Below, piece after piece: positions 1 to 27,113 of a stretch of DNA of 40,623 nt; position 1 is the stretch's first letter; each line of letters begins with the position of its first letter. A program made the translations under genes and the position numbers. Below the pieces are notes generated by a model, which saw nothing but the letters and a program-made list of their open reading frames with translations, searched no databases and had not been told where the DNA came from. Source of the stretch: Alphaproteobacteria bacterium (lineage in GTDB: Bacteria; Pseudomonadota; Alphaproteobacteria; Rhodobacterales; Rhodobacteraceae); contig JAUIDM010000002.1 in the NCBI GenBank assembly GCA_030428915.1, positions 1-40,623 on the forward strand, read 5' to 3'.

Positions 1-1344
1 GCGCGCATCGCGGCCATGACCAACCCCGACCGGCAGCAGATGGAGCTGAAGCTCACCGCCAAGCTCTTCCTGCAGACCGACAATGAAAAGCTGAGCGGGC
101 TTTTGGCCGGGGGTATCGACCTCTTCGTGGCGGCCGGCCTTCTGGCCTTCGAGCGCGGCGTGCCGACCATCGGCGAGATCTATCGCATCACAGCCTCGGG
201 GGGCGACAAGCAGAAGGAATACCTGAAGCGTTCACAGGAGGTGAAGAACAAGTCGGCCAAACTGATCTTCGAGCGTATGGCATCGACCAACAACGACACC
301 CTCACTTCCTACCTCTCCCTCCTGATGACATCGGGCCTCGACACTTGGGACAACCGCGCGATTGACGCGGCCACCGCGACCTCTGACTTCTCATTCCGGG
401 ATATCCGCCGCCGCCCACATGCGATCTATCTTGTGGTCGAATCCGAGATGATCCGCCCGCTTGCCCCGCTGATCCGCCTCTTCTTTTCGGACCTGATTGC
501 CTCGCTGCAGGCACAGGAACCCGGCGATGACGAGCCGTGGCCCGTGATGATCATGCTCGACGAGTTTGACCGGCTCGGGAAAATGCCGATCGTCGCCGAA
601 AGCATAAAGACGCTGCGTTCCTTCGGCGGCAATCTCGCCATCGTGACCCAGACTATCCCCGCGCTGGACGAGATCTATGGTGAAAACACCCGCCGGTCGC
701 TGCAAGGCGGTGCTGGCGTGAAGCTCTATCTCACCCCCTCCGAGCAGAAGACCATCGAGGAATTGAGCCAGGCTGTCGGCAAGACCACAAAGCGCGTGGT
801 AACCAGGTCCCGCGCTGTTGGACGCAATCCGTTCGAAGGACGCAGCGTCTCGGAGAGGACCGAGGACACTCCGCTCCTGACCGAAGATCAGGCCCGGCGC
901 ATGGATCTCGACGAGGTCATTCTAGTGATAGACGCGCAAATGCCGATCCGCGCTCGGCGGATCAAGTACTTCGAGGATCCGACGCTCAATGTGCTGCACG
1001 CCGGTCAATCGGGAAGCTTCCCATATCCCGACGAGGATGGGCTGAGGCGGGATCGGCAGATGTCGGAGACCCGCGAGACGTTGGAAAAGCTGAAGCAGGA
1101 GCTACAAGAGGTGCGGGCGGCAAATGTTGCATCGGAAGTCGGTTCGAACGCGCCGAACACACCGAAGACTGAACCTGTCAACTCAGCGAAAGCCCGAGGC
1201 CGCGCAGCTCGTGCTGCTGCGAGCAGCGGTGGCCAGGGTCAGCTGTCGCTTGATATCGAGGGATTGGGGATTATCAGCTCAGACCGGACAGCGTTGGCTT
1301 CGGCTGTTCTAACGACGAGGGCTATTATCGCGGAGCATGGGTGA
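1..1344 (+). CDS. virD4: Type IV coupling protein VirD4/TraG, 3' part (5' end outside window)
   Basis: Inner-membrane ATPase that hands the relaxase-DNA complex to the VirB channel. The frame is open to base 1, so the start and the Walker A region lie upstream. Counting from the first in-frame ATG (base 16), a Walker B segment VMIMLDEFDRLG sits near residues 177-188, followed by the family motif around IVTQTIPALDEIYGENTRR (209-227). The DARMP-like C-terminal block ends near PIRARRIKYFEDP. The last ~100 residues are low complexity (Ala/Arg/Gln) and end at a TGA just before a catabolic gene block. The gene runs toward the virB operon, convergently, with a 7 kb metabolic block in between. Relaxase is not in view. 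Family assignment is firm; whether the C-terminus is native or was altered when the neighbouring block arrived cannot be told. Confidence 0.9.
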   Translation, partial: ARIAAMTNPDRQQMELKLTAKLFLQTDNEKLSGLLAGGIDLFVAAGLLAFERGVPTIGEIYRITASGGDKQKEYLKRSQEVKNKSAKLIFERMASTNNDTLTSYLSLLMTSGLDTWDNRAIDAATATSDFSFRDIRRRPHAIYLVVESEMIRPLAPLIRLFFSDLIASLQAQEPGDDEPWPVMIMLDEFDRLGKMPIVAESIKTLRSFGGNLAIVTQTIPALDEIYGENTRRSLQGGAGVKLYLTPSEQKTIEELSQAVGKTTKRVVTRSRAVGRNPFEGRSVSERTEDTPLLTEDQARRMDLDEVILVIDAQMPIRARRIKYFEDPTLNVLHAGQSGSFPYPDEDGLRRDRQMSETRETLEKLKQELQEVRAANVASEVGSNAPNTPKTEPVNSAKARGRAARAAASSGGQGQLSLDIEGLGIISSDRTALASAVLTTRAIIAEHG

Positions 1345-1401
1345 GCGTGGGAGAACTCACTAAGCCCTTCTGCATCGGCGATTGGCCTTTTGCAGACGAA
1401 C

Positions 1402-1420
1402 TGAAAGGTGAAGTCTTTCA
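1402..1420. other. Small inverted repeat after virD4
   Basis: TGAAAG and CTTTCA form a perfect 6-bp stem with a 7-base loop in the 121-bp gap between the convergent virD4 and lacI-type genes. There is no T tract. It could be a weak bidirectional terminator; otherwise I see nothing in this gap. Confidence 0.25.
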
Positions 1421-1465
1421 CCCGATTGGTGCAGGGTAGGTGTTCGGAACGCCATGTGCATCCTA

Positions 1466-2569
1466 CTAAGCAGTTGATGTTCCGGGTGGAGGGGCAATCG
1501 AGCCGCGCGACAAGTAGCGCGGTCGCAACTTCAGGTTCCGCGCTCTGCCCTTGGCCCCCTTGATCCGTGCAATCAGCAGGGCCGTCGCCGCTTTGCCAAG
1601 ACGCCTGCGCGGTTGGGCGATTGCATCGATACCGCTACCCACGAAGGCCATCCAGTCCAGATCGTCAAAGCAGACAAGTGATAGATCATCCGGTACGCTC
1701 AATCCGCACGCCACGATAGCCGCCATGGCCCCAGATGACATCAGCCCATCTGCGCAGAACAGCGCGGTTGGCCGGTCGGGGGTCTCAAGAAGCGCGCGCA
1801 CCGATTGCTGCGCTGCCGATGCGGAATGCTCACCAACATGGACAATCAGCGCTGGGTCGATCTCAAGCTGCGCGTCACGATGCGCCGCAAGATAGCCTCC
1901 AAGACGCTGCCAGCTTGTCGAGACTTCGTTCAGATGGGTTCTGCCCCCCTGCCCTGCCGAGGCAAGGAATTTGGGCAGATCTTGAGAAGCAGTGCGGCCC
2001 AATTCCGCCACGACACCTATGCGGCAATGACCTGCCCGCAAAAGCCGGGCAACGCCATTGCGGGAGCATTCGATATTCTCGACCGAGACACTGTCGATCT
2101 GAAGACCCGTCACCTTGCGGTCGATTAGCACCATCGGTATTCCGGCTGCAGCCGCCTCTTTGAGGTGGGGGGAGTCCATAACATCGCAGGGAGAGACGAT
2201 GAGCCCGTCAACCTGGTTCTCCCGCAGCAGTTTCGTGGCGGCAATCTCACGCGCTACCGTTTCATCACTGTTTGTGATCAACATGCTCATGCCGCGCGCT
2301 TCCACCCCATCCGATATGCCCCGCAACACGGCAGCATAGAATGGGCTCGAGATATCGCCGGCAATTACCCCGATGGTGCGGGTCTGACCGGTGATCAGAC
2401 CGCGCGCCAGTTTGTTGGGCCGATAGCCAAGCTCGGAGGCAACAGCCTCAACCCGCTCTCTGGTTTTTGCACCTGCATAGCCGTAATTCCCGAGGACCCG
2501 GCTTGCTGTGGCGACGCTGACCCCGGCCTTGGCTGCAACCTCGACGATCGTTACTTTCGCTGCCTTCAT
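1466..2569 (-). CDS. LacI-family transcriptional regulator of the catabolic module
   Basis: A 367-residue LacI/GalR repressor. The N-terminal HTH (about residues 6-27, VTIVEVAAKAGVSVATASRV) and hinge (YRPNKLARGL) are intact. The periplasmic-binding-protein-like sensor domain follows, with the typical DISSPFYA and DGLIVSPCD segments and the late segment SLVCFDDLDWMAF. It is the last gene of a minus-strand unit after the SIS deglycase and the cyclodeaminase-like enzyme, 75 bases downstream of the latter. Local control of this unit and of the divergent kinase-TRAP operon is the natural inference, with the substrate or its phosphorylated form as inducer. It is not recognisable as a specific named repressor. 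Confidence 0.9.
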   Translation of the reverse strand: MKAAKVTIVEVAAKAGVSVATASRVLGNYGYAGAKTRERVEAVASELGYRPNKLARGLITGQTRTIGVIAGDISSPFYAAVLRGISDGVEARGMSMLITNSDETVAREIAATKLLRENQVDGLIVSPCDVMDSPHLKEAAAAGIPMVLIDRKVTGLQIDSVSVENIECSRNGVARLLRAGHCRIGVVAELGRTASQDLPKFLASAGQGGRTHLNEVSTSWQRLGGYLAAHRDAQLEIDPALIVHVGEHSASAAQQSVRALLETPDRPTALFCADGLMSSGAMAAIVACGLSVPDDLSLVCFDDLDWMAFVGSGIDAIAQPRRRLGKAATALLIARIKGAKGRARNLKLRPRYLSRGSIAPPPGTSTA

Positions 2570-2644
2570 GCGGTCCGATCCGTTTTGCTGCGCAGGCGTG
2601 GTAAACTACCCAGGTTCGCGCTCGCATCCCGCAACCCGTGCCGC

Positions 2645-3595
2645 CTATGGAAGACGTTCAGACAAGGCCACGGCGGCAAAAAGGTCAAGATGGCCGCCGC
2701 CGACATTTTTGAACACCGTGATTTCCGAGTCCGACTGACGCCCCGGATGCGCGCCCTGGCAGAGTTGATAGAGGTCTGCGCCGACGTCATCCCAGCCGAT
2801 AACCCCGGCTGCGACGGGGCGGGACAATTCACCCGAGCCCTTCATCCCGTCTCGGCAATCGACAAAGATCTGCCCGCGCGCCATCGCCTCGTCATCGGCC
2901 TCTCGCATATCCGGCCGATAGGCCCCGACCAAGTCGAGATGCGCCCCTGTTTTCAGGAGCGCCCCCTTGACCAGCGGCTCGCGGGTCATGGTGACACAGG
3001 AGATGATATCAGCCTCGGCCACGGCTGCATCCAGGTCGCGCGTGGCCGCGATATCGACGCCTTGCATATAGGCCCCCGCCTTGAGCGAACTGGCAAGCGC
3101 CTGAGCGCGGTCGGGCGTACGGTTCCAGATCAAGACACGCTTCAACGACGGGCGCGCGGCGTGATGGGCCGCGATGACATGCGGCGCAAGACCCCCTGCC
3201 CCAACGACCAACAGCGTCCCGCTATCAGTCCTCGCAAGCAGACGAGTGCCGAGCCCCGAATCCGCCGCTGTTTTGCGGAAGGTCATCGCCTCGCCATCGG
3301 CGGCAAGCATCGGTGCCCCGGTGGCAGGGTCGAAGAGCGCGACCAGCCCCTGTACCGAGGCCTGCGGCGGATCAAGCGCCAGATTGCCGGGAAAGACCCC
3401 AACCATCTTGACCGCGATGCCCTTGCCACCTTGCCAGCCCACAAGGGTCACGAATTGATTGTCGCCGCCCTCCGGCTCGGTGCTGACGATATGATCGGCG
3501 GCGGGATGCGCGCCCTGATGGGCCTGGTGCAGGGCCTCGATCAGATAGGGGTAATCCAGCAATCGGTGGACGGTTTCGGCATCTGCCAGTCTCAT
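2645..3595 (-). CDS. Ornithine cyclodeaminase/mu-crystallin family oxidoreductase
   Basis: A 316-residue NAD(P)-dependent enzyme of the ornithine cyclodeaminase/alanine dehydrogenase/ketimine reductase family. The Rossmann nucleotide site is LLVVGAGGLAPHVIAAH (about residues 148-164), followed by a basic-aromatic stretch (VLIWNRTPDRA). The family Lys is likely that in GIAVKMVGVFPGN, and the C-terminus ends in the family helix (NVGGGHLDLFAA, a variant of SVGxALEDLAAA). It lies 10 bases after the SIS deglycase stop. Context suggests it acts on the amino acid or imine freed from an Amadori compound (deamination, cyclisation or imine reduction). The family covers several reactions, so the exact substrate is open. 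Confidence 0.85.
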   Translation of the reverse strand: MRLADAETVHRLLDYPYLIEALHQAHQGAHPAADHIVSTEPEGGDNQFVTLVGWQGGKGIAVKMVGVFPGNLALDPPQASVQGLVALFDPATGAPMLAADGEAMTFRKTAADSGLGTRLLARTDSGTLLVVGAGGLAPHVIAAHHAARPSLKRVLIWNRTPDRAQALASSLKAGAYMQGVDIAATRDLDAAVAEADIISCVTMTREPLVKGALLKTGAHLDLVGAYRPDMREADDEAMARGQIFVDCRDGMKGSGELSRPVAAGVIGWDDVGADLYQLCQGAHPGRQSDSEITVFKNVGGGHLDLFAAVALSERLP

Positions 3596-3605
3596 CGCGG
3601 GTTCC

Positions 3606-4613
3606 TCAGTAGTCGTCGAGTTTCTTCATGTAGCGCCGTGCCGACATCATCTCGTGTTGGCGCAAGTCCGCAAGGCGGTAGGCGAAGGCCCACAGCGTAT
3701 CGAAGAACACCAGTGGCGCAAGCGCGCCGCGAAACTCGGGTTCGATTCCGGTGAAATCGAGCTCGGCAGCATCAACCACCAGGATATTCTCGAGGCGACC
3801 AAAGCGCAGCAAGAAGTTTTCGGCGCGCTCTTCCAGTGGGCGCGTATCGTCCAGCCCTTTCATCAGGATGTAGCAACGGCTTTCGTCCAGAACCTCGAAC
3901 GCACCGTGGAAAAACTCGTTGGCGTGGATCGGGTGGCTGTTGATCCACTGCATCTCCATCAACACGCAGATCGCATAGGAGTAAGCCGCGCCATAGCAGG
4001 CCCCGCTGGCCAAGGTATAGATCACATCTTGTTTCGCAAAATGTGGGGCGTATTTGTCGAAACGCGGTGCGAAAACACCCTGCGCACGGTCGATGACCGA
4101 TTGCAGCGCATCAAGACTGTCCATCAACGCGACCATATTTCCACCACCATCATAGCGAGCGGCAAGCCCCTGCACGATCTGGTAGATCCGGGCGTAATTG
4201 CTGTTCTTGGCATCGATCGGAATGCCGGTCGTGTAGGGCGCTTCGAACGCCACGACATGATCGCTGGCTTTGGCCAGCGGGCTCTCAGGGTCCACTGTTA
4301 GCGAGATTGTCAACGCCCCGGCCTCTCGAGCGAACTTCGCCGCCGCGACGGTTTCGCGCGTTGTGCCTGTCATCGAGCACAGGATGACCAGCGATTGCGT
4401 AGTTAGCCGCCTAGGCGCGCGATGAGTGAATTCGGCCGCGTTGTAGAGATCCGATGGCAGTTTGGCCGAAGCCTGATCCAGCATGAATTTAGCCGGATAC
4501 ATGATCGAGAGCGACCCGCCACAGGCCACGAAGAACACGTGCTGCGTGTCGCGTCCGTCAAGCGCCTGGAGCGCACGCACGACATCGGGATGAGGGGATT
4601 GGGGTTCAGACAT
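3606..4613 (-). CDS. SIS-domain sugar isomerase, FrlB-like fructosamine-6-phosphate deglycase
   Basis: A 335-residue double-SIS protein like the isomerase half of glucosamine-6-phosphate synthase. SIS-1 starts at VFFVACGGSLS and includes the phosphosugar-binding stretch ILCSMTGTTRETV. SIS-2 includes IYTLASGACYGAAYSYA and the signature segment IHANEFFHGAFEVLD, which matches the NEF(F)HGP-type active-site region of FrlB/GlmS relatives. The C-terminus (MSARRYMKKLDDY) also resembles FrlB, which ends RRYYGGLVEY. FrlB converts a fructosamine 6-phosphate to glucose 6-phosphate plus the free amine. The divergent neighbour is an FrlD-like kinase that would make its substrate, which strengthens the call. 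First gene of its minus-strand operon. The exact amine (lysine, glutamine, opine-type) is unknown. Confidence 0.85.
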   Translation of the reverse strand: MSEPQSPHPDVVRALQALDGRDTQHVFFVACGGSLSIMYPAKFMLDQASAKLPSDLYNAAEFTHRAPRRLTTQSLVILCSMTGTTRETVAAAKFAREAGALTISLTVDPESPLAKASDHVVAFEAPYTTGIPIDAKNSNYARIYQIVQGLAARYDGGGNMVALMDSLDALQSVIDRAQGVFAPRFDKYAPHFAKQDVIYTLASGACYGAAYSYAICVLMEMQWINSHPIHANEFFHGAFEVLDESRCYILMKGLDDTRPLEERAENFLLRFGRLENILVVDAAELDFTGIEPEFRGALAPLVFFDTLWAFAYRLADLRQHEMMSARRYMKKLDDY

Positions 4614-4632
4614 CTTGTGGGGCTCCGCATTA

Positions 4633-4695
4633 TTGACAACAGGAATTCGCGGGTGCTTGACAGCCGCATGTGATTTGTGTGAACCTTCTCACATG
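4633..4695. promoter_or_regulatory. Divergent promoter/operator region between the deglycase and kinase genes
   Basis: Two TTGACA hexamers on the plus strand (4633-4638 and 4657-4662) could be -35 boxes, though no good -10 is seen at 17 bp. A palindrome TGTGA-N6-TCACA lies at 4678-4693. A larger inverted repeat, CATGTGA (4667-4673) and TCACATG (4689-4695), overlaps the proposed kinase start codon. The half-sites match the layout of CRP/FNR-type operators; a LacI-family or CRP-like regulator could bind here. Seen directly: the repeats. Inferred: their role. Confidence 0.45.
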
Positions 4696-5625
4696 ATGTC
4701 TAGAAACGCAACCTCTCCGCAAATTGTTACCTTCGGGGACAACGATGTGGATTGCTACGAGGCGCACGGGGCGATGTATCCGGGCGGCAATGCGCTGAAT
4801 GTGGCGGTTTTTGCCCGACGCGCCGGCGCGGATGCGGCCTTTATCGGCGCCATGGCAGATGACCCCGCTGGCCGCCACATGAGCGTTGCCTTGGAAAGGG
4901 AAGGCGTCAATATCACACGCCTGCGCCGCGTTGCGGGGCGCACCGCATTCTGCGTCATTGGCAATACCGCCAGTGGTGAGCGAGAGTTCCTGCGCGCCGA
5001 TCTGGGCGTCTCCATCATCGCGCCCAATGCCGGTGATTTAGAAATGATCGCAAGGGCCGATGCCGTCCACACCGGTCGCTCTGCCCATGTCGAGGCGCAT
5101 TTGTCAGCATTCTCCAACCGCGCGCGATTGTCTTTCGATTTCGCGGACCAGACCGGGGTCGATTATGTAGATGCCATCGCGCCGATGTGTTTTCTGGCGA
5201 GCTTTTCGGGCGGTAGTATGACCGACGCAGAAGTCGCCACGTTGCAAGCGCGGGTGCGCAAGGCAGGGGCGATCTGGTGCCTTGTCACACGCGGCCAGAA
5301 CGGCGCCTACCTGACCGGACCTGATACGGATGTAGGTGTTCCCCCCGCGCCCGCCGAGATCGTCGATACGCTCGGTGCCGGGGACAGCTTCATCGCGCGG
5401 GTTCTCACCGGGCTTTTGCGTGGCGAAGACCCGCGCGCCTTGATGCAGGCCGCCGCCATCATGGCTGGCGAAACCTGCGGCCAGCGCGGTGGCTTCGGTC
5501 ACCCCGCACCCATCGACATTGACCAAAGCCACGCCATGCCGATCGGCTTGATCCATGCGCATGCCGCCGAACTGGCGGACCGGGCCAGAAAGCGCAGCGC
5601 CGAAACCGGCGTCCCGGCCAAGTAA
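4693..5625 (+). CDS. PfkB-family sugar kinase, FrlD-like fructosamine 6-kinase
   Basis: A 310-residue ribokinase/PfkB-family kinase. The N-terminal TFGDNDVDCYE and the PGGNALNVAVFARR motif (PfkB signature 1) closely parallel FrlD (IGDNCVDIY..SGGNAVNVAVY). The C-terminal signature IVDTLGAGDSFIARVLTGLL carries the catalytic Asp of GAGD. FrlD phosphorylates fructosyl-amines at C6 to give the substrate of FrlB, encoded divergently next door. I chose the ATG at 4693 because translation from there begins just before the conserved core; the frame is open back to 4615, but that stretch is the divergent regulatory region. An ATG at 4696 is equally possible. The ribosome-binding site is weak. First gene of a kinase-dctP-dctQ-dctM operon, with a 20-base gap to dctP. 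Confidence 0.85.
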   Translation: MMSRNATSPQIVTFGDNDVDCYEAHGAMYPGGNALNVAVFARRAGADAAFIGAMADDPAGRHMSVALEREGVNITRLRRVAGRTAFCVIGNTASGEREFLRADLGVSIIAPNAGDLEMIARADAVHTGRSAHVEAHLSAFSNRARLSFDFADQTGVDYVDAIAPMCFLASFSGGSMTDAEVATLQARVRKAGAIWCLVTRGQNGAYLTGPDTDVGVPPAPAEIVDTLGAGDSFIARVLTGLLRGEDPRALMQAAAIMAGETCGQRGGFGHPAPIDIDQSHAMPIGLIHAHAAELADRARKRSAETGVPAK

Positions 5626-5645
5626 CGCAACACGGAGGACGAGAC

Positions 5646-6650
5646 ATGACCACCCCATTCAATGCCCTGACCCGACGCCACGCTCTTGCCATGCTGGCCA
5701 GCACACCGCTCGCCCTTTCGGCAAGAACTGCCTTCGCTCAGGATGCGGCAAATTTCAGGATCGCTTCGGTCAACGCGCCAACCGCGCTGTCCAACACGCT
5801 CGCCGAAGAGGTCGGCAACCGGATCATGGAGCGCACCGAAGGGCGCGTCACGTTCCAGATGTTCCCGAGTGCCCAATTGGGCACGACGACCGACACCATC
5901 GAACAGGCAAGCCAGGGTCAGCCGACCATCGCCTATACCTCGGCCAGCAACCTGTCGCAGTTCGGTGTGCCCGAGCTTGCCGCGGTCGAGGGGCCGTTCA
6001 TCGTCGGCAATGCCGCGGAAGCCGAGCGCCTCGCCAATTCGGACCTGATGCAGGGCTATTATGATCAGCTTGCCGAAACCGCCGGTCTGCGCGTGCTGGC
6101 GTTGAACTGGTTCGACGGGGCGCGCCACATGATCGGCACCGAGCCCTATCCGCACCCCTCCGACCTGGAGGGCGTCCTGATGCGCGTGCCGCCGCTTGAA
6201 ACTTGGCTCAACACCTTCGAGCCAATGGGCGTGGTCGCCACCACGGTGGAAGCCGCCGAGGCCTATTCTGCCTTGGCCCAAGGTGTCGTGACGGCCGGGG
6301 AATCCCCTTTGACTGGCCTGCGTGCGAACCGGTGGTATGAAGTCGTCAAGGAAATCACCCTGACCGGACACTTCAACCTGTTCCTTGGCTGGGTCACGTC
6401 AGAGGCGGCCTTCCAGGCCTTGTCGGAGGGCGACCGCGCCATCATGCTGGAGGAGTTCCGCGGTGGTGGGCAGGAGCTGACAGCGCAATCCATCGCGTTG
6501 GAAGAGGAAATCCGCGCCGAGTTTGAAGCGGCGGGAGTTACGTTCCACGAGGCGGACCTCGACGCCTATCGTGAAGCCACTTCCAGCTTCTTCGATGATC
6601 TGCCGGAAGGTCTGTTCGACAGCATTCGTTCCGCCGCGACACAGGGCTGA
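5646..6650 (+). CDS. dctP: TRAP transporter solute-binding protein DctP
   Basis: A 334-residue periplasmic receptor of a TRAP transporter. It has an export signal with a twin arginine (LTRRHALAML) and a cleavage-like ARTAFAQD near residue 31. The DctP fold follows, with the segment GVLMRVPPLETW, whose Arg (about residue 180) is in the position that in this family usually salt-bridges a substrate carboxylate. A carboxylated ligand fits a fructosyl-amino acid but does not prove it. A good GGAGG lies just upstream of the ATG. It sits between the FrlD-like kinase and the membrane subunits. Confidence 0.9.
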   Translation: MTTPFNALTRRHALAMLASTPLALSARTAFAQDAANFRIASVNAPTALSNTLAEEVGNRIMERTEGRVTFQMFPSAQLGTTTDTIEQASQGQPTIAYTSASNLSQFGVPELAAVEGPFIVGNAAEAERLANSDLMQGYYDQLAETAGLRVLALNWFDGARHMIGTEPYPHPSDLEGVLMRVPPLETWLNTFEPMGVVATTVEAAEAYSALAQGVVTAGESPLTGLRANRWYEVVKEITLTGHFNLFLGWVTSEAAFQALSEGDRAIMLEEFRGGGQELTAQSIALEEEIRAEFEAAGVTFHEADLDAYREATSSFFDDLPEGLFDSIRSAATQG

Positions 6651-6659
6651 CCAATGGGT

Positions 6660-6680
6660 GCCGACACGATCTGTGTCGGC
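6660..6680 (+). promoter_or_regulatory. Stem-loop between dctP and dctQ
   Basis: GCCGACAC and GTGTCGGC form a perfect 8-bp stem with the loop GATCT, 9 bases after the dctP stop and with no T run. Such hairpins after a binding-protein gene commonly stabilise the upstream message so that the receptor is made in excess over the membrane subunits. That role is inferred here. Confidence 0.6.
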
Positions 6681-7185
6681 ATCTTCGAGCTGTGGGGAGG
6701 TATCCGGGATCGAACGTGTTTTTTTGCGACCTTTGCTGCGCCTGATCGGCGAATTGATCCCGACACTCCTTCTCGGGATAGTGCTTGTGGCGGTCGGTGC
6801 AAACGTCATTTCGCGAACAGTGCTTCGCGAAGGGTTCCAAGTCGCCAATGAACTGGCCGTGGTCTGTTTTGCGGGCGTGGTGTTCTTCGGGATCATCGGG
6901 GCCGCGTTGGGCAAGCAGATGTTCGGGGTTGATTTCTTCGTATCCAGATTGCCCCGGCGGCTTCAAGCCTGGGTGACAGCGCTGACCCATCTTCTTGTCA
7001 TCGCCATCGCACTGCAGGTTCTGAACGCAGCCATTGCACAGGTGTCGACCGCGCGGTTCACCACGTTTCTAGCACTGGGCTGGCCAAAATGGATCGTGTC
7101 GGCCGGTCTGGGTGTGGCAATGTCGGCCATCATCTTGGTCCAACTGCTCCATCTTGCCGAACTTTGGCGGGAGCGCCGCACATGA
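6673..7185 (+). CDS. dctQ: TRAP transporter small membrane subunit DctQ (start uncertain)
   Basis: About 160-170 residues with four hydrophobic segments (LIPTLLLGIVLVAVGANVI; ELAVVCFAGVVFFGIIGAAL; WVTALTHLLVIAIALQVL; WIVSAGLGVAMSAIILVQLL), as expected for the four-helix DctQ subunit. The start is unclear. The GTG at 6673 is the first conventional start after dctP but lies in the stem-loop. The only good ribosome-binding site, GGAGG at 6696-6700, is followed 8 bases later by an in-frame ATC (6709), with TTG at 6724 further on. A non-standard start is therefore possible. The stop overlaps the dctM start (ATGA). Confidence 0.8.
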   Translation: MSASSSCGEVSGIERVFLRPLLRLIGELIPTLLLGIVLVAVGANVISRTVLREGFQVANELAVVCFAGVVFFGIIGAALGKQMFGVDFFVSRLPRRLQAWVTALTHLLVIAIALQVLNAAIAQVSTARFTTFLALGWPKWIVSAGLGVAMSAIILVQLLHLAELWRERRT

Positions 7186-8459
7186 TTGCGTCAGGCATTG
7201 CCTTCCTTGCGCTGCTGGTGCTGCGTGTTCCCATCGCCTTCGTGATCCTGGGGGCCTCGGTGATCTATTTCGCCCTCAACCCGATGATGGCCAGCACCGT
7301 GGCGCAACGCATGGCTTCTTCACTGGAGAGTTTCCCGCTGCTCGCGGTGCCGTTTTTTATCGTTGCAGGCGCCGCTATGGCCCGTGGCGGCATCGCCCAA
7401 CGTCTCTACGATTTCGCCGATGGGCTTGTCGGACACTGGCATGGCGGGCTGGCGCAGGTGGCAGTGATGAACTCGCTTTTCCTGGGGGCGATGTCGGGTT
7501 CATCCAACGCGGACGCCGCCATTGACGCGCGCACCATCGCGCCGATCATGCGTCAGCGCGGCTATTCCAACGGCTTCGCCTCGGTGGTCAGCGCCGCCTC
7601 GGGGGCCATCGCGCCGATTATGCCGCCCTCGATCGGGCTGATCGTCTATGGGTTGCTGACCGACACCTCCATTGGACGCCTGTTTATCGGCGGCATTATC
7701 CCGGCATTCATCATCACCTGCGCGTTACTGCTGACGGTGCGCATCATGGCGAAACGGCGCGGTTACAAACCCGAGCGTGCGCAGAGATTGCCCGCGCGCC
7801 AGATCGCGGCGCGCGGGCAATCTGCCCTTTGGGCGCTGGCGATGCCGGTGCTGCTGATCGTCGGGTTGCGCGGTGGCTGGTTCACACCGACCGAGTTGGG
7901 GGCAATGGCCGCTCTTTATGCTTTCGTTATCGGCATCTTCGTCTATCGCGGCTTTCGACTGTCCGAAACCTATAACCTGCTGCGCGAATCCGCGCTGACA
8001 ACCGCGAATGTCCTGTTCATCGTGGCCTCGGCGGCCGTCTTCTCACTGGTTCTGGCGCTGGAGCAGGTGCCGCAATCTCTGTTGACCAGCCTGCTGTCTC
8101 TGTCCGACAACAAATATGTCATCCTGATGATCCTGACCGTGATGCTGCTGGTGCTTGGCACCATGCTTGAAGGCCTTGCGTTGATGGTGATCCTGGTCCC
8201 GATCCTCAATGAGGTGACGCGCACCCTCGGCATTGACCCGGTCCATTTCGGTATCGTCCTGGTATTCAACACAACCATCGGCTCGATCACGCCACCCGTT
8301 GGCACGGTCCTTTATACCGTCTGCTCGATCACCAAATGCTCGATTGAGGAGTTCAGTCGCGAATCCCTGCCCTTCCTGGCCAGCCTGATCGGCGTGCTGC
8401 TTCTCTTGACCTATGTGCCAGCGCTGGTGACGTTCCTGCCGAACCTGTTGTTCCGCTGA
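7182..8459 (+). CDS. dctM: TRAP transporter large membrane subunit DctM
   Basis: A 425-residue, strongly hydrophobic protein with about 12 membrane segments, the transport channel of the TRAP system. Family landmarks are LLAVPFFIVAGAAMARGGIAQRL near the N-terminus, GAMSGSSNADAA, AIAPIMPPSIGLIVYG, and the C-terminal repeat FGIVLVFNTTIGSITPPVGTVLY. It overlaps dctQ by four bases (ATGA), which fixes the start at 7182. Last gene of the kinase-TRAP operon. Confidence 0.92.
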   Translation: MIASGIAFLALLVLRVPIAFVILGASVIYFALNPMMASTVAQRMASSLESFPLLAVPFFIVAGAAMARGGIAQRLYDFADGLVGHWHGGLAQVAVMNSLFLGAMSGSSNADAAIDARTIAPIMRQRGYSNGFASVVSAASGAIAPIMPPSIGLIVYGLLTDTSIGRLFIGGIIPAFIITCALLLTVRIMAKRRGYKPERAQRLPARQIAARGQSALWALAMPVLLIVGLRGGWFTPTELGAMAALYAFVIGIFVYRGFRLSETYNLLRESALTTANVLFIVASAAVFSLVLALEQVPQSLLTSLLSLSDNKYVILMILTVMLLVLGTMLEGLALMVILVPILNEVTRTLGIDPVHFGIVLVFNTTIGSITPPVGTVLYTVCSITKCSIEEFSRESLPFLASLIGVLLLLTYVPALVTFLPNLLFR

Positions 8460-8918
8460 TCCTGGAAGCTATAAGTGCCCATGACAGTGGTTTTTAAATG
8501 GCGGCGCGTGCCATATTGACCGTGCGGCCACAATTCCACTCGTCATTCTCGGCGTCCGCGACCGGTCGGCGGAACCGTTCGCCTTTGCAGCTTTCGGCAC
8601 GGGCACGCAAATGGGTCGGTTATTCCATGCAAATGGTGCAATCCAACACCGGAGTTGAGACCTACCATCTGCACCTGCCTTCACCGCTTCCCCAAACTGG
8701 CACTGAACCGAAGAAATTGGTAGCCACAGTATAGGATTGGCAACGGTGAGCCGCCTCAGATACTGCATGAATGCTCACCCACCTGGTCTTGACTTCACGA
8801 AGTCATCGCCCCGACCAATAATCCAACGCGGTGAGACGAGGGGCGATCTTGAGTTGAACCTATTATGTTAAAGGAGTTCAGTAACTCATTGAAGATAAAA
8901 GTAAACTCGTCCAACCCA
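8460..8918. other. Intergenic region between dctM and virB6
   Basis: 459 bases with no convincing gene. Short reading frames exist on both strands (8469-8768 minus, 8498-8734 plus) but have shadow-like composition and no usable ribosome-binding site. Visible structure: a tight palindrome GACTTC-AC-GAAGTC (8791-8804); an inverted repeat ATCGCCCC (8805-8812) / GGGGCGAT (8840-8847); and GAGTT-CAGT-AACTC (8874-8887). The last lies on the virB6 3' side and could be a weak terminator. The stretch 8850-8905 is AT-richer than its surroundings. It may be the scar of the junction between catabolic block and secretion operon. Confidence 0.4.
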
Positions 8919-9944
8919 TCACGGGGCCAACCGTTTCGCCCTCTCCGCTATCCGCACCACTTGCGCGCTCGCGGTCGCCGCAGCGCTCCACACAACCACA
9001 GGCGCCTGCACCGCACCTCGTCCGATCGCTTCGCCTGTCGTGAGCGCACCGATCCGTGATCTGCCCTTGACGCCGTTCGTATTGAAGATCCCTCGCATGA
9101 TCCCCGTCGAACCAGCAACCACCGCTGGTGCCGCTGCCACCATCAGGTTCCCTGAAATCCCCCGGACGATCAGGGGCGTTGCCGCGACGAATCCCTTCGC
9201 CAGGAAAACCATCACAAAAAATGGGACGAGCGACCCGATATTGGTCGCCGAGTTCGGATCATCGAGTTGGGCCAGCAGTGAATTCGCCATGCCGACGACT
9301 GTTGAGAACATGGCGGCGATGACGATGGGGTAGAAGGCGTAGCTGATCGTTGTCGAAACCCATCTGTGGAAGAAATCCTTGGTCGCATCGAAGAGCGACA
9401 AAGCGATCATGATCGGGGCGAGGCCGAGCATGAGTGTCAGCATCATCTTGGCGAAGATGAGGACGATGCCGGTCATGAAGCCAAGAAGGCTAAGGAGCAC
9501 GAGGCCGATGCCGCCGAGGATCGCGCCAGTCATCCAGTTCAGATTGCTGCCGATCGCGTTCAGGTACTGACTGAACTCCGTGATCAGATCATCGAACTCA
9601 GCCGCAAAGTATGTGGCCCCTGCCCCGCCGCCGCCAACCGAGGAGATCAGGGCCCCGGCGACATAGTCGAGCCCGCCGATGACGGCATTGGCGACCGCGT
9701 TGAAGTTGGCCCAGTTGAAGGCGAACAACCCGATCAGGGTCAGCTTGATCAGGTACCAGAAGAAGCTGGCCCCATCCATGCTGCGGAACTGGAAGGCCAT
9801 GTTGATGCAGACGCCGATCAGCGAGAGCGTGACCATCAGCAGGACGATCGTGCCGGTATTGCTTGCCACCGCCCCGAACTGGGACTCGGCGGCATCGGCA
9901 AGGAAGCCATCGGCAGTTCCGACCATCCAGCTGACGATGCTCAT
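8919..9944 (-). CDS. virB6: Type IV secretion protein VirB6 (TrbL/VirB6 family)
   Basis: A 341-residue polytopic inner-membrane channel component. Hydrophobic segments include TGTIVLLMVTLSLIGVCINM, AILGGIGLVLLSLLGFMTGI and the central family block FAKMMLTLMLGLAPIMIALSLF followed by FFHRWVSTTISY, a typical VirB6 region with a conserved Trp. The C-terminal ~80 residues are a soluble Ala-rich tail. It is the last gene of the virB operon; its ATG overlaps the stop of the preceding small gene by one base (TAATG). Confidence 0.88.
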   Translation of the reverse strand: MSIVSWMVGTADGFLADAAESQFGAVASNTGTIVLLMVTLSLIGVCINMAFQFRSMDGASFFWYLIKLTLIGLFAFNWANFNAVANAVIGGLDYVAGALISSVGGGGAGATYFAAEFDDLITEFSQYLNAIGSNLNWMTGAILGGIGLVLLSLLGFMTGIVLIFAKMMLTLMLGLAPIMIALSLFDATKDFFHRWVSTTISYAFYPIVIAAMFSTVVGMANSLLAQLDDPNSATNIGSLVPFFVMVFLAKGFVAATPLIVRGISGNLMVAAAPAVVAGSTGIMRGIFNTNGVKGRSRIGALTTGEAIGRGAVQAPVVVWSAAATASAQVVRIAERAKRLAP

Positions 9945-10363
9945 TACCAGTTGCCTTGGGTTTCGCAGATGTCCTGGACGTCGCGGGCGATCTGGTTCTG
10001 TTCGTTGCGAATGGCCAGCCTCGCTTGAGTATGCTCGGCCTGCGTGCTTGTTGCGAACCGCTCCTCATACTCGGCGGAGGCTGCATCCCATGACGGGAAG
10101 CGGACATCACAGCCGCAGTCGCCAATTTCCTTGATCGCCTCCCAGGACCGCAGCTCATAGAGCCGCATCAACGTTAGCGCCTTATAGGACTCTCGCGGGT
10201 GGACTTCATCCATCCAGGTCGGTCGTGCGGGCCGGTCGTTGCAGATCCGGTACTGCTGGGGCGTGACGGTCACGGTGAGATCATTCGTGACCTGAGGCGA
10301 GGTCTGGGCCGCGAGCGGCGCGGCCAGCAGGGTGACAACTGCGGCGAGGATGGTATGGCGCAT
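9944..10363 (-). CDS. Small exported protein of the virB operon, unknown function
   Basis: 139 residues with a signal peptide (MRHTILAAVVTLLAAPLAAQ) and a mature part with four Cys (RICNDRP, GDCGCD, DICETQ) that could form disulfides in the periplasm. The start at 10363 is preceded by AAAGGAAA at good spacing; an upstream in-frame ATG (10384) overlaps the virB11 stop but contains that ribosome-binding site. Its place between virB11 and virB6 suggests an envelope accessory role, perhaps with VirB6. I do not recognise a named family. Confidence 0.75.
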   Translation of the reverse strand: MRHTILAAVVTLLAAPLAAQTSPQVTNDLTVTVTPQQYRICNDRPARPTWMDEVHPRESYKALTLMRLYELRSWEAIKEIGDCGCDVRFPSWDAASAEYEERFATSTQAEHTQARLAIRNEQNQIARDVQDICETQGNW

Positions 10364-10380
10364 GGGGATTTCCTTTCGGT

Positions 10381-11415
10381 TCATTCGGCCGCGACCGTGG
10401 GGCGCTCGGCACCCCCGGCTGGACCCGTGTTCTGGTCTGGATGTCTCGCCTGCCCCGGCAGGAAGAACTCGGTGATGCCGCGGGCGCCGTCATGACGGCC
10501 GGCCTGAATGATCACGTCGATGGAGCCCTCGATGTAGTCCACCATATCGGCATAGGTCATCGGCACATCGGTCTTGAGCGCGGCAATGGCGAGGCGACGG
10601 ACGGCGAGTTGCGGTGTTTCGGCATGCAGCGTGGTGAGCGAGCCGCCATGGCCGGTGTTGATCGCCTCAAGGAAGGTCATGGCCTCCCGACCACGGACCT
10701 CGCCCAGCACGATCCGATCAGGCCGCATCCGCAGGGTCGAGGCCAGAAGCACATCGGCGCTGCGGGCGTCGGTATCCCGGTCGGCGATCAGCGTTACGGC
10801 ATTCGGCTGTTCGGGGCGCAGTTCGGCTGCCTCCTCAATGGTGATGATCCGCTCCTCGGGTGGGATCAGCGAGAGGATCTTGCGCGCCGCGACCGTCTTG
10901 CCGGTCGAGTTGCCCCCCGAGACGATCATGTTGAGCTTGTTCTCGACGCAGAACCGCAGGGATGCATCGATGTCGCCGGAGGCCACCACATCGCGCAGGG
11001 CGGCATTCCGTTCGCGGCGCAGGCCTTCGAGGCTGCGCTCCTTGCCATAGAGAAACCTGAGCTTGATCGCCTCCAGCGGCAGGGAGGAGAAGAACCGTAG
11101 CGAGATCGAAAACCCACCCTCGACGGCGGGTGGCTGGATCACCTGCGCCCGGATCGGACGATCCCGATAGAGGATCGAGACCGAGACGATGGGCTTCTTG
11201 GTGCTGAGCGTGGTTGAGGCGGCCGAGGCGATCTGGTTGCCGAGGTCCTTGATCTCGGTCTGGGTAAGCGAGTTGCCGAGACCTCGCATGAAATGATCGC
11301 CCTGGAATTCGCCCCAGACCTTCCCGTCGGGGTTGATGCAGATCTCGATCGTGTCGTCGCGTTGCACGTGCGCGCCCAGCCGGTCGAGCGAGGCTTCGAG
11401 ATAGCTTGCGGCCAT
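10381..11415 (-). CDS. virB11: Secretion ATPase VirB11
   Basis: A 344-residue hexameric traffic ATPase that powers pilus assembly and transfer. Walker A is GGNSTGKT (about 167-174 from this start), a variant of GGTGSGKT with Asn-Ser. The Asp box region is IITIEEAAEL, Walker B and His boxes are LRMRPDRIVLGEVRGREA and TGHGGSLTTLHA. Start chosen at 11415 (MAASYLEASL), one base after the virB10 stop; the frame is open further upstream only inside virB10. The C-terminus has a Pro/Gly-rich tail. Confidence 0.93.
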   Translation of the reverse strand: MAASYLEASLDRLGAHVQRDDTIEICINPDGKVWGEFQGDHFMRGLGNSLTQTEIKDLGNQIASAASTTLSTKKPIVSVSILYRDRPIRAQVIQPPAVEGGFSISLRFFSSLPLEAIKLRFLYGKERSLEGLRRERNAALRDVVASGDIDASLRFCVENKLNMIVSGGNSTGKTVAARKILSLIPPEERIITIEEAAELRPEQPNAVTLIADRDTDARSADVLLASTLRMRPDRIVLGEVRGREAMTFLEAINTGHGGSLTTLHAETPQLAVRRLAIAALKTDVPMTYADMVDYIEGSIDVIIQAGRHDGARGITEFFLPGQARHPDQNTGPAGGAERPTVAAE

Positions 11416-11416
11416 G

Positions 11417-12739
11417 TCAGAAGATCTCCAGATCGCGGTCGACCATGACCGTGATCCGCGTGCCCTGATCGACATGGATCACGGGGCGGATCGCCAGATA
11501 GTCCTGCATGACGCTTTGGGTGCTGTCGCGCAGGTCCGTGCCGACGTCGCTCGCGATGTCGGCCGCGGCCTCATCATCGATCTGTCCAGCGGCCGCCGCG
11601 GGCAAGGCCCCGATCAGCGAGATCAGCGCGGCCGAACCGAAGCGCTGCGCAAAGCGGGTGTCGACAAAGCCGGTGGTGCCGGTGCGGCCGAGCTCGTCGC
11701 CACCAAAGGCGCTGATCTCGACTGTCTGGTTGTCGGGCAGGATGATGCGGTCCCAGGCCACCATGACTCGCGACTGCGCGAGCGCCACATCGGAGCGATA
11801 GCGCCCCACAAGACGTGCACCGCGCGGGATCAGGACCCGCGCGCCGTCGAAGGAATGCACATCTTCCGAGACGATGGCCCGGATTGCACCGGGCAGCGTG
11901 CTGTCCAGCGCCGTCTCGGTCACGGCCTGGATCATCGTGCCCTGCACGACGGTGTTGCCGGGGTTCAGGATCACTTCGGCCCGCGTCACTGCGGCAGGTC
12001 TGGCGCCCGCGCGCACGAAAGCTTCGTCCTCATTCAGGCGCGCGGCTTCGAGGCTGTTCTCCCGGTCGGTCCCTGCCCCCATCCCGGAAAACGCGATCAT
12101 GGGCGACGCGATGCGTTCGGCCCGGGCTTCGGCTTCCGCGATGCGGCGGCGCTCAAGTTCGGCGAGCCGCAACTCTTCCTCGTTCGGCCCGAGGTCGGTG
12201 GGGGCAGGCGGGGTCAGCCGCGCGACTTCGAGGTCCATGCGCAGCTGGTCGAGCTCGCGGTCGCGTTCGGTCAATTGCCGCTCGAGCGCGCGCTGCGCCT
12301 CGGTCGAGGCCTCCTGCAGCGCCGCGATCTGCGCCGTGAGATCGGCGATAGCCTGCTCCGCGCCGCTGTCCGATGCCTCGACAGGCCGCGCGCGCAGGTC
12401 TTCGAGTTCCGCCCGAAGCGTCGCGAGGCTTTCCATCAGCGCCAGTTCCGACGCAGAGGGGCCCGTTTCGGCGGGCGGCGGCGCAGACTCGACCACGGGC
12501 ATTGGGGCCAGGTCCCCAAAGCCCGATCCTGTGGTCTGGAACTCTTCCGGAGCTGCGGTCGGCAGTGGGGCTTCCGGCGATGGCTGTAGGGCGGCCCAGG
12601 CCAGCCCGCCCACGGCCACGATCCCGGCCACACCGAGGATTGCGGCCAGCGGGGAGGGCCGCGCGGCACCGCGCTTCTTGTCGCCTGTCGCTTCAAGGGC
12701 CGCGAGGCGGGCGGCGAGGTCTTCGGTGTCCTGGCTCAT
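11417..12739 (-). CDS. virB10: Type IV secretion core-complex protein VirB10
   Basis: A 440-residue bitopic protein spanning both membranes. A short cytoplasmic N-terminus is followed by one membrane helix (SPLAAILGVAGIVAVGGLAW), a Pro-rich stretch, a long Glu/Arg-rich coiled coil (about residues 100-210) and the C-terminal VirB10/TrbI beta domain. The domain is marked by VQGTMIQAVTETALDSTLPG, VLIPRGARLVGRYRS and the late FAQRFGSAALISLIGAL segment that forms the outer-membrane pore helix. Start fixed by the ATGA overlap with virB9. Confidence 0.93.
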   Translation of the reverse strand: MSQDTEDLAARLAALEATGDKKRGAARPSPLAAILGVAGIVAVGGLAWAALQPSPEAPLPTAAPEEFQTTGSGFGDLAPMPVVESAPPPAETGPSASELALMESLATLRAELEDLRARPVEASDSGAEQAIADLTAQIAALQEASTEAQRALERQLTERDRELDQLRMDLEVARLTPPAPTDLGPNEEELRLAELERRRIAEAEARAERIASPMIAFSGMGAGTDRENSLEAARLNEDEAFVRAGARPAAVTRAEVILNPGNTVVQGTMIQAVTETALDSTLPGAIRAIVSEDVHSFDGARVLIPRGARLVGRYRSDVALAQSRVMVAWDRIILPDNQTVEISAFGGDELGRTGTTGFVDTRFAQRFGSAALISLIGALPAAAAGQIDDEAAADIASDVGTDLRDSTQSVMQDYLAIRPVIHVDQGTRITVMVDRDLEIF

Positions 12740-13449
12740 GATGTGGGCCCACCCATATCCTGAACACAGACTTCGTCTTCGCCGAGGCGCAGGACCCATT
12801 GCCGGTTCACACCCGAGACGCGGATGACGCCGTCCTCGAGTGCCGTGCTGTTCACCGCCCGCTCGCCGCCATTGGCATAGCGGAAGATCGCGGGAACAGG
12901 CGCGTTCCGCGCAAAGCGGAAATACGTGAAGGTGCCGTCATCCCAGATAGCCGTCGGCGTGAACTCCTCGCTTGCGCTGACGGCGTAGTTGGCATTCGGC
13001 GCATCAGCCGCGACGGCCCGAGCCGGTTGAACGCGACTCTCGGGATAGCGGAACTGCACGACGTAATGCGGGGTCTCGCGCGCCTCGACCACGTGGAAAT
13101 AGTAGGAGCGGCGGTTCGTGTAGACCGTGATGTTGGTGGCGACACCCGAGGCCGCGGGCTTGATCGCGAAGGCCCGACCGCCGGGCACGCCGTCGAACTG
13201 GAAGCCAACCGTGTCACCCGCGATGATCGAACGGATCGTCTCGCCCTCGCCGAATTCGACTGTGGTCACCCGGGTCAGGGTGGTGACGACGCGGTAAACC
13301 TGCCCCTCGGTCCAGGTGGCGATCCGGACGCGGTTGTCATGGGGACCGGGGCGTGGCGTGGTCTCGGCAAAGGCTGCGGGCGCCATGAGCGCCAGCGCAC
13401 CGACGACGAGCAGGGCGTGAACGGGTGTGAGAACTGGAACAGAGGTCAT
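12736..13449 (-). CDS. virB9: Type IV secretion core-complex protein VirB9
   Basis: A 237-residue periplasmic/outer-membrane core protein. Signal peptide (residues 1-28, ending APAAFAET). N-terminal domain with VYRVVTTLTRVTTVEFGEGE, a family block, then TNITVYTNRRSYYFHV. The C-terminal VirB7-binding-type beta domain has NANYAVS, PTAIWDDGTFTYFRF and DGVIRVSGVNRQWVLRLG. Start overlaps the virB8 stop (ATGA). It would assemble with VirB10 and the lipoprotein encoded further upstream in the operon. Confidence 0.93.
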   Translation of the reverse strand: MTSVPVLTPVHALLVVGALALMAPAAFAETTPRPGPHDNRVRIATWTEGQVYRVVTTLTRVTTVEFGEGETIRSIIAGDTVGFQFDGVPGGRAFAIKPAASGVATNITVYTNRRSYYFHVVEARETPHYVVQFRYPESRVQPARAVAADAPNANYAVSASEEFTPTAIWDDGTFTYFRFARNAPVPAIFRYANGGERAVNSTALEDGVIRVSGVNRQWVLRLGEDEVCVQDMGGPTS

Positions 13450-14123
13450 TCGGAACGGTCCGATCGGATGGCATATTGGGTAACGGTGAAGCCGAAGGGG
13501 TTTTGCCAGACGTCGTCGATCGAGCGGGTCCGTTCGGGCTGAAAAGCGAACATCAATGTTGCGGTGAAGGAGCCGTCCTGCACCCCTTGCGGGCTGGTCA
13601 GGCGCTTTCTGAGACGTACCTGGGCGCGGTTGTCACCGATCAGCGTGATCGAGGCGATCTCGACAGCCATCTCTGCGGCGGGACCGTAGCGAGACGGCGG
13701 ATAGCTCTCCTGCCCCGAGGTCCACATGGTGCGCATGCTGGCCTCGGCAGCCCCTGTGGATTGCGCCAACACCCGGCGGACGCGCAGATCGTTGTCGAGC
13801 TGGTTGTAGGCCTCGCGGTCGAGGATGTAGCGGTAGATCTGCGCCTCGATGATGGCGGGCCGCTCGGCAAGCGAGACCGTTTCGACCGTGGCGTTCGGCA
13901 GAGCGAGACCGGTCGCGGGGTCATAGGGCACGACGACGGGCGGAGGCGTCTCTACCATCAGGGCGACAGCAGCGGCCGCAAGGCAGCCTAAAACGCCAAA
14001 GCCTGCCCCGCCAAGGCCGATCATCCGCCAGAGCTGCTCCCGGCGCAGCGCTCCGTGGATCAGTTCCTCTTCGACCAGTTCCCGCGCACTCATCCCTGCC
14101 GTCATGTCCGGTGCCTTGCTCAT
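13446..14123 (-). CDS. virB8: Type IV secretion assembly factor VirB8
   Basis: A 225-residue bitopic inner-membrane protein: cytoplasmic ~33 residues, one membrane helix (about 34-57), then the NTF2-like periplasmic domain. Family features include the Tyr-rich ATVETVSLAERPAIIEAQIYRYILDREAYN region (split by several residues), RYGPAAEMAVEIASITLIG and the terminal FQPERTRSIDDVWQNPFGFTV, close to the NPxGF motif of VirB8. Four-base overlap with both neighbours. Confidence 0.92.
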   Translation of the reverse strand: MSKAPDMTAGMSARELVEEELIHGALRREQLWRMIGLGGAGFGVLGCLAAAAVALMVETPPPVVVPYDPATGLALPNATVETVSLAERPAIIEAQIYRYILDREAYNQLDNDLRVRRVLAQSTGAAEASMRTMWTSGQESYPPSRYGPAAEMAVEIASITLIGDNRAQVRLRKRLTSPQGVQDGSFTATLMFAFQPERTRSIDDVWQNPFGFTVTQYAIRSDRSE

Positions 14124-14917
14124 GGCCGCAGGCTCGGCAGGGTGAAGTCCATGTAGCGGCGCTCTTCGGCGACGGTGGCCGCATCCACCACGCCGGCATT
14201 GCCCGCGCCGAGGGTCTGGATGGCTTCAAGCTCCCACATGCGGGTCATGGCGATGGCGAGTTCCGCCGTGACGCGGGTGTTGTGGTCCATCGACGCCTTC
14301 AGGTCGTCCATGTCGGGGATCATTGCGACGAGCTGTTCGACGCGTTCGAGCGACTGAGCGGCCTCTGCATGGCTGTTCTGGGCCGCCGCCGACATCACGG
14401 CGCCGGTCGTGGCGCGGGTCACAACACCTTCCGCGCCTGGATTGCCGCTGGTGGCGATCTCGCGGAGTGAATCCTCATCGAAGCCCGCACTGGCCAGCGC
14501 CTGTTCCATCTGCGTGCGCAGAGGCCCTGCATTGGGGCCGATCAGGCTCGACCAGTCGCCCGCCTGGATGCCGCGGATCAGGCCTGGGATGTCTTCGAAA
14601 TTAGCTTGCAACAGGTTGTCGAGATCGCCGCCCATGGCCAACCCAAGGATACTGCGCGGCCCGGTGAGCGAGGCATACATTTCGTTCAGCTGATCGAGCT
14701 GGCCTTGCAGCGTCTCCAGTTGTTCGAGCGCATTGTCCAGAAGATCGGTCTGGATCCCGAAATCCTGCAGCATCTGCTGAAGCTGGCGGATTTCCTGGGC
14801 GATGTTCTGCGTGTCGACCGTGGGCACGCCCTGTGCGGCGACGGGGCCCGCGAGGGCAAGGCCAAGCGCGAGGGTCGCGGCGGTAGTGGTAAGGGAAATG
14901 CGCAGTGGCCTTCTCAT
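14120..14917 (-). CDS. virB5: VirB5-like pilus-tip/minor pilin protein
   Basis: 265 residues with a signal peptide ending PVAAQG, a helical N-terminal part (IRQLQQMLQDFGIQ, LEQLETLQGQLDQLNEMYASLTG) and a further helical C-terminal part ending ERRYMDFTLPSLRP. This is the VirB5/TrbJ-type layout of long helices. The mature start (QGVPTVD) and the end (RRYMDFT..LR) closely match the upstream neighbour that carries an inserted lytic transglycosylase, so the two are likely paralogues. Four-base overlaps tie it to virB8 and to that neighbour. Confidence 0.82.
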   Translation of the reverse strand: MRRPLRISLTTTAATLALGLALAGPVAAQGVPTVDTQNIAQEIRQLQQMLQDFGIQTDLLDNALEQLETLQGQLDQLNEMYASLTGPRSILGLAMGGDLDNLLQANFEDIPGLIRGIQAGDWSSLIGPNAGPLRTQMEQALASAGFDEDSLREIATSGNPGAEGVVTRATTGAVMSAAAQNSHAEAAQSLERVEQLVAMIPDMDDLKASMDHNTRVTAELAIAMTRMWELEAIQTLGAGNAGVVDAATVAEERRYMDFTLPSLRP

Positions 14918-26825: not shown

Positions 26826-27113
26826 ATGCAGGATGTACTGACCGCCATTTGCGACCCGACCCGCCGCGCAGCACTCGCCCTTCTCTGGGATGGGGGAGAG
26901 CACTGTGTTTGCGAATTGATGGCGAGGCTCGACGCGAGCCAGAGCCGGATGTCGCGGCACATGAAGGTGCTGCGTGAGGCCGGCCTCGTGCTGGACAGAC
27001 GCGACGCGCAATGGGTGCGCTACCGCCGGAACCCCGACCTCGCGCCGGAATTCGCGGCCGTGATCGACGCTGTGCTGACCGCCGAATTCAATCTTGAAAG
27101 GAAGGTCGCATGA
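26826..27113 (+). CDS. arsR: ArsR-family metal(loid) sensor repressor
   Basis: 95 residues, winged-helix ArsR/SmtB repressor. The alpha-3 helix carries Cys27 and Cys29 in EHCVCELM, the CVC metal-binding box of arsenite-responsive ArsR proteins. The recognition helix region is SQSRMSRHMKVLREAGLV. The third Cys seen in some ArsR proteins is absent. It overlaps the permease gene (ATGA), so it heads a six-gene unit up to the CDF transporter. Arsenite/antimonite sensing is the likeliest role given the arsenite oxidase locus nearby. Confidence 0.9.
   Translation: MQDVLTAICDPTRRAALALLWDGGEHCVCELMARLDASQSRMSRHMKVLREAGLVLDRRDAQWVRYRRNPDLAPEFAAVIDAVLTAEFNLERKVA

Follow-up and report, generated by a model that had tools for sequence, protein, structure and literature searches.

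A divergent gene cluster in a Rhodobacteraceae bacterium predicted to couple TRAP-type import to fructosyl-amino acid catabolism

We analysed a 40,623-nucleotide stretch of alphaproteobacterial DNA (Rhodobacteraceae; GCA_030428915.1, contig JAUIDM010000002.1), referred to as the window herein, and found a seven-gene cluster that is likely to be a catabolic module for fructosyl-amino acids served by a tripartite DctPQM (TRAP) transporter, with lysine as the most probable amino acid released. As the gene set recurs in several genera, the cluster is not a chance assembly. Its enzymes are of known kind; the new elements are the type of importer and a coupling to lysine and pipecolate metabolism, all functions being predicted.

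Gene content and setting of the cluster

A preliminary description of this DNA had placed a FrlB-like deglycase and a FrlD-like kinase as divergent neighbours beside a DctPQM transporter, and both points were confirmed. The genes for the LacI-family regulator, the OCD-family enzyme and the SIS protein lie on the minus strand, those for the PfkB kinase and DctPQM run divergently on the plus strand, and all seven (1466–8459) are intact, with Pfam matches above the gathering cut-offs (Table 1; SIS, 64 bits), including those of the three adjacent transporter subunits. The kinase gene probably starts at ATG 4693 rather than at TTG 4615.

Table 1. Coordinates of the cluster features in the window
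Feature	Position	Strand	Basis
LacI-family regulator	1466–2569	-	Pfam LacI and Peripla_BP_3
OCD/mu-crystallin-family enzyme, predicted D1-piperideine-2-carboxylate (ketimine) reductase	2645–3595	-	PF02423 (OCD_Mu_crystall), 165 bits
SIS-family deglycase, FrlB-like (predicted)	3606–4613	-	49.7% identity to B. subtilis FrlB (PDB 3eua), 306 bits
Candidate LacI operator, imperfect palindrome TGTGAACCTTCTCAC	4678–4692	.	Directly 5' of kinase start
PfkB kinase, FrlD-like	4693–5625	+	PF00294, 111 bits; GAGD motif; NF007321; tree
DctP, TRAP substrate-binding protein	5646–6650	+	PF03480, 168 bits; Arg180
DctQ small membrane subunit, start codon uncertain	about 6658–7185	+	PF04290, 73 bits
DctM large membrane subunit	7182–8459	+	PF06808, 390 bits

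The closest solved relative of the SIS protein is the fructose-amino-acid-6-phosphate deglycase 3eua, presumably B. subtilis FrlB. A tree built from 42 SIS proteins places the window protein within a 31-member group that also holds B. subtilis FrlB, a relative from Priestia and SIS proteins encoded on agrobacterial plasmids, while the GlmS-like SIS proteins of the window's own genome lie far outside it; E. coli FrlB, 26.9% identical to the window protein, sits on a long, unsure branch. The phylogeny proposed earlier as a check thus favoured the FrlB assignment. Residue columns E220 and H236 were considered as an FrlB marker and rejected, since GlmS-like proteins carry both. For the kinase, which bears its GAGD motif at residue 228, the corresponding tree gave a partial answer: the protein is placed close to the FrlD type and at a distance from ribokinases, with weak deep support. 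The best NCBIfam model of the SIS protein, fructoselysine-6-P deglycase NF008481, scored 108 bits against a cut-off of 430; this model is tuned to E. coli, whose FrlB scores 812 bits, and the Priestia relative also falls under the cut-off. The best model of the kinase, fructoselysine 6-kinase NF007321, gave 131 bits, below its cut-off of 247. Since a B. subtilis FrlD fragment likewise misses that cut-off (122 bits), the failure of the SIS and PfkB proteins to reach the curated values is uninformative. The SIS protein is probably of FrlB type, predicted to convert a fructosyl-amino acid 6-phosphate to glucose-6-phosphate and an amino acid.

The LacI-family regulator is 37.7% identical over 361 aa to SocR of A. 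tumefaciens F2 (blastp). A palindrome reading GTGAGAACGTTCACAC in Sulfitobacter occurs in near-identical form just 5' of the window's kinase ATG, and GAGAACGTTCACAC is kept at the corresponding position of the Nioella locus and of two loci from Sulfitobacter. The exact operator-like site is found once in the whole window. By this consensus match, the palindrome may be a LacI operator.

Conjugation genes flank the cluster, with TraG/VirD4 at 16–1341 and VirB6, VirB11, VirB10 and VirB4 from 8922 on, and bases 1–14621, a segment spanning the cluster as well as conjugation genes, match a contig of Nioella ostreopsis collinearly (94.6% identity). The earlier description of the cluster as plasmid-borne is backed by its flanks and by homologues on plasmids, though a replication gene was not identified, and it is probably correct. 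The same contig carries an ArsP-family permease gene (27110–28165) and a gene for an 821-aa Rieske/molybdopterin oxidoreductase that resembles the arsenite oxidase large subunit (35301–37763).

Linkage of the TRAP transporter to the deglycase and importer exchange in relatives

Arg180 of DctP, from which a carboxylated ligand had been predicted, is present and invariant across 11 aligned DctPs. In a separate alignment, one misframed DctP outgroup row (G513) was disregarded. As an equivalent arginine is found in 96.8% of TRAP binding proteins (PMC5812351), this residue indicates an acid and is too common to point to an Amadori compound. AlphaFold models built from shallow alignments were unusable (mean pLDDT of 35 for DctP and 45 for the OCD-family protein).

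The distribution of this DctP is more telling. Among 72,556 plasmid records, its nine best matches, each with at least 62% identity (about 63–86%), all lie on records bearing this SIS gene (9/9), and below them identity falls to 36–38%. Of 395 genomes from the order, only four encode a close DctP, and the SIS gene is present in these four and in no other (hypergeometric p about 1e-9, kinship ignored). The cluster is rare, being present in 3/394 good genomes of the order sample and in few elsewhere, which fits horizontal spread. The next-nearest DctPs (35–39% identity; loci L065, L066 and L067) belong to another recurring, uncharacterised cluster that encodes a SIS protein, a ROK kinase, a DIT1/PvcA isonitrile-synthase-like protein and an AraC regulator, one copy of which adds asparaginase and FrlC-like genes.

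The neighbourhood survey suggested in the preliminary description found the SIS-PfkB-dctPQM set on plasmids and in genomes of several genera. The window's arrangement recurs on Sulfitobacter plasmids, in Nioella and in other genomes, and a Paracoccus plasmid has the same gene order with an amino-acid ABC importer added. TRAP alone serves the clusters of the window, Nioella, two Sulfitobacter plasmids (one typed conjugative), an uncultured Rhodobacteraceae and genome G060; an amino-acid ABC importer alone serves those of Shinella, S. meliloti pSymA, Tropicimonas, Rhizobium, A. tumefaciens F2 and contig C510 of the window's own genome; and both accompany the clusters of Paracoccus, R. oryzihabitans, A. 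pusense, A. tumefaciens CFBP6626 and Microvirga. Genomes G904 and G922 pair SIS-PfkB with a Soc-type importer. On the SIS tree, the presence of TRAP requires at least four changes and a single clade of all TRAP bearers is rejected (p-AU 8e-6), which indicates that the importer has been exchanged while the enzymes stay. The second cluster of the window's genome (L023, on C510) has a SIS protein 71% identical to the window's, an amino-acid ABC importer and a GntR regulator. In Agrobacterium pusense pAtCFBP5875 (L040), a TRAP-PfkB-SIS segment is duplicated and inverted.

Taken with this DctP type's exclusive co-occurrence with the SIS gene across genera, the shared divergent layout and the substitution of ABC or Soc importers in relatives make it very unlikely that DctPQM takes up some unrelated organic acid and adjoins the Frl-like genes by an accident of island assembly, even though the ligands listed in the TRAP review are acids, sialic, hexuronic and aldonic acids among them, and include no Amadori compound (PMC5812351). 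Our search of open-licence full texts likewise found no paper pairing TRAP with fructoselysine or describing TRAP uptake of Amadori compounds, in agreement with the earlier remark that no such system is described. TRAP uptake of an Amadori compound by DctPQM is the likely reading of these gene neighbourhoods.

The nature of the substrate is addressed by the relatives' soc genes. The ABC version of the cluster in A. tumefaciens F2 directly adjoins a soc operon, with neighbours annotated as a deoxyfructosyl-amino-acid transporter, a deoxyfructose oxidoreductase and a fructosyl-amino-acid oxidase. These soc-type genes are 82–96% identical to the pAtC58 genes adjoining repABC, a site to which soc, for catabolism of deoxyfructosyl-glutamine (santhopine), has been assigned (PMC4231840). 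The SIS-PfkB pair is accompanied in G904 and G922 by SocA- and SocB-like genes (73–74%) and a SocD-like oxidase gene (64%); OCD was not detected in these two clusters. SocABCD proteins were not found in the window, whose SocR-like regulator is the sole soc-type match. The analogy with opine catabolism drawn in the preliminary description is borne out to the extent that SIS-PfkB relatives lie beside, or together with, the soc system of agrobacterial plasmids (PMC4231840). Given the soc adjacency, the SocAB/SocD partners and the SocR-like LacI protein, a fructosyl-amino acid is the best-supported substrate class.

SIS folds serve many reactions, and the E and H columns that we checked are shared with GlmS-like proteins, so the enzyme might instead act on another phosphosugar amine (an aldosamine, an amino-sugar acid or a mannityl opine). 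We consider this unlikely in view of the 50% identity to B. subtilis FrlB, the adjoining FrlD-like kinase, the relatives' SocAB/SocD partners and the FrlC-like epimerase genes found near ABC versions of the cluster. An Amadori substrate, as first proposed, is thus well supported by the FrlB grouping, the recurring gene set, the soc adjacency and the swapping of importers. On Allorhizobium pAtS4c and Priestia pBEH4 (L029, L045), FrlB-like SIS and PfkB genes have hydantoinase/5-oxoprolinase genes as neighbours, perhaps for fructosyl-(pyro)glutamate.

The OCD-family enzyme and the released amino acid

In the window protein and its aligned relatives, a tyrosine stands where the nopaline Ti Ocd has its catalytic aspartate (Asp228 in P. 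putida OCD; PMC3840593), and the carboxylate-binding lysine and arginine are kept. A lysine or ornithine cyclodeaminase role was rejected because of this replacement. The best NCBIfam model is the pyrroline/piperideine-2-carboxylate reductase NF004793 (298 bits, cut-off 322; 320 bits for the Microvirga copy). The earlier suggestion that this enzyme could process the released amino acid can therefore be sharpened: it is probably a ketimine (piperideine-2-carboxylate) reductase rather than a cyclodeaminase, which would suit a route from lysine to pipecolate.

Genes near the relatives point the same way. L-pipecolate-oxidase-like (AmaA-like) genes lie near four relatives (391–466 bits, below the model cut-off of 600), and the L-piperidine-6-carboxylate dehydrogenase model is passed near two (799 and 804 bits, cut-off 730). 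Besides the pipecolate-oxidase-like gene and the piperideine-6-carboxylate dehydrogenase, the plasmid of Sulfitobacter indolifex encodes an aminotransferase and HglS, a 2-oxoadipate dioxygenase/decarboxylase (703 bits, cut-off 550). HglS acts after the D-lysine/pipecolate route. As described in P. putida, the route from D-lysine to pipecolate includes the reductase, the oxidase and the dehydrogenase (PMC6667623). The window contig itself has no lysine genes, and elsewhere in its genome we found a distant AmaA-like gene and a truncated dehydrogenase match. The pipecolate genes of the relatives could also be an independent catabolic island. On balance, the proposal that lysine is released and that the OCD-family enzyme makes pipecolate has a nearly even chance of being correct.

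The substrates might instead be alpha-glycated amino acids in general, still imported by TRAP, with the OCD-family enzyme reducing another imine such as D1-pyrroline-2-carboxylate. We regard this as a substantial possibility, though one short of even: the closest characterised deglycase is B. subtilis FrlB, which, with its pathway, favours alpha-glycated amino acids generally and not lysine (PMC12632257), NF004793 is a bifunctional model for pyrroline- and piperideine-2-carboxylate, and a search of the window's genome for HglS gave no match. What speaks for lysine is the clustering of pipecolate oxidase-like, piperideine-6-carboxylate dehydrogenase and HglS genes with several relatives; proximity of the oxidase-like gene alone would arise by chance with a probability of about 8e-7 under a simple one-genome model.

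Predicted pathway and relation to known systems

Amadori compounds form whenever sugars and amino acids come into contact, as in food and decaying plant material, and described bacterial uptake of them is by ABC importers and permeases. In the pathway that we propose, DctP would take the Amadori compound in the periplasm, with Arg180 holding the carboxylate of the amino acid, and DctQM would import it on an ion gradient. Phosphorylation of the fructosyl group by the PfkB kinase, at C6, would yield the 6-phosphate that the SIS deglycase would split into glucose-6-phosphate and an amino acid. Lysine, the product considered most likely, would be deaminated elsewhere to D1-piperideine-2-carboxylate, which the OCD-family enzyme would reduce to pipecolate for oxidation by AmaA/AmaB-type enzymes. 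Both divergent operons would be under LacI repression, with the palindrome in front of the kinase gene as the probable operator.

The cluster resembles B. subtilis frlBONMD-frlP in its same-group deglycase, PfkB kinase and cytoplasmic two-step logic. That system differs in having the ABC importer FrlONM with FrlP/MsmX (PMC12632257) instead of TRAP, a repressor, FrlR, that is GntR-like by our search instead of LacI, and, as described, no OCD. E. coli frlABCD(R) shares the deglycase and kinase families, but the deglycase is 27% identical and the FrlD-type kinase 31%, uptake is by the FrlA permease rather than TRAP, and the FrlC epimerase has no counterpart in the window. Agrobacterium pAt soc (socR, socABCD) is likewise a plasmid-borne Amadori system with a LacI regulator, and its importer type accompanies the SIS-PfkB pair in two genomes; its importer is of ABC type, and oxidoreductase/oxidase enzymes take the place of a kinase and SIS deglycase. 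Besides the TRAP clusters, the nearest known version is the SIS-GntR-OCD-amino-acid ABC-LacI-PfkB cluster of rhizobial plasmids and C510, whose SIS (55–71% identity), OCD and PfkB proteins are homologous to the window's; it has a polar amino-acid ABC importer in place of DctPQM and often an FrlC-like epimerase and an FAD enzyme, and open-licence papers yielded no functional description of it. The P. putida D-lysine/pipecolate pathway (amaC, dpkA, amaA/B, HglS), three gene types of which flank a Sulfitobacter copy, is the predicted route for released lysine; it lacks sugar-conjugate uptake.

We put forward only tentatively, as rather more doubtful than probable, the full proposal that this is the first TRAP-type Amadori importer, within a mobile fructosyl-lysine module that drains lysine through piperideine-2-carboxylate and pipecolate. 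The lysine-pipecolate prediction yields one well-defined candidate ligand, and the homologous enzymes found with TRAP, ABC or Soc importers amount to a natural transporter-swap experiment. If true, a TRAP route would widen the ligand range of this transporter family and extend such pathways to seawater- and copepod-derived bacteria, and the drainage of lysine would connect the use of Amadori compounds with the pipecolate branch of lysine catabolism.
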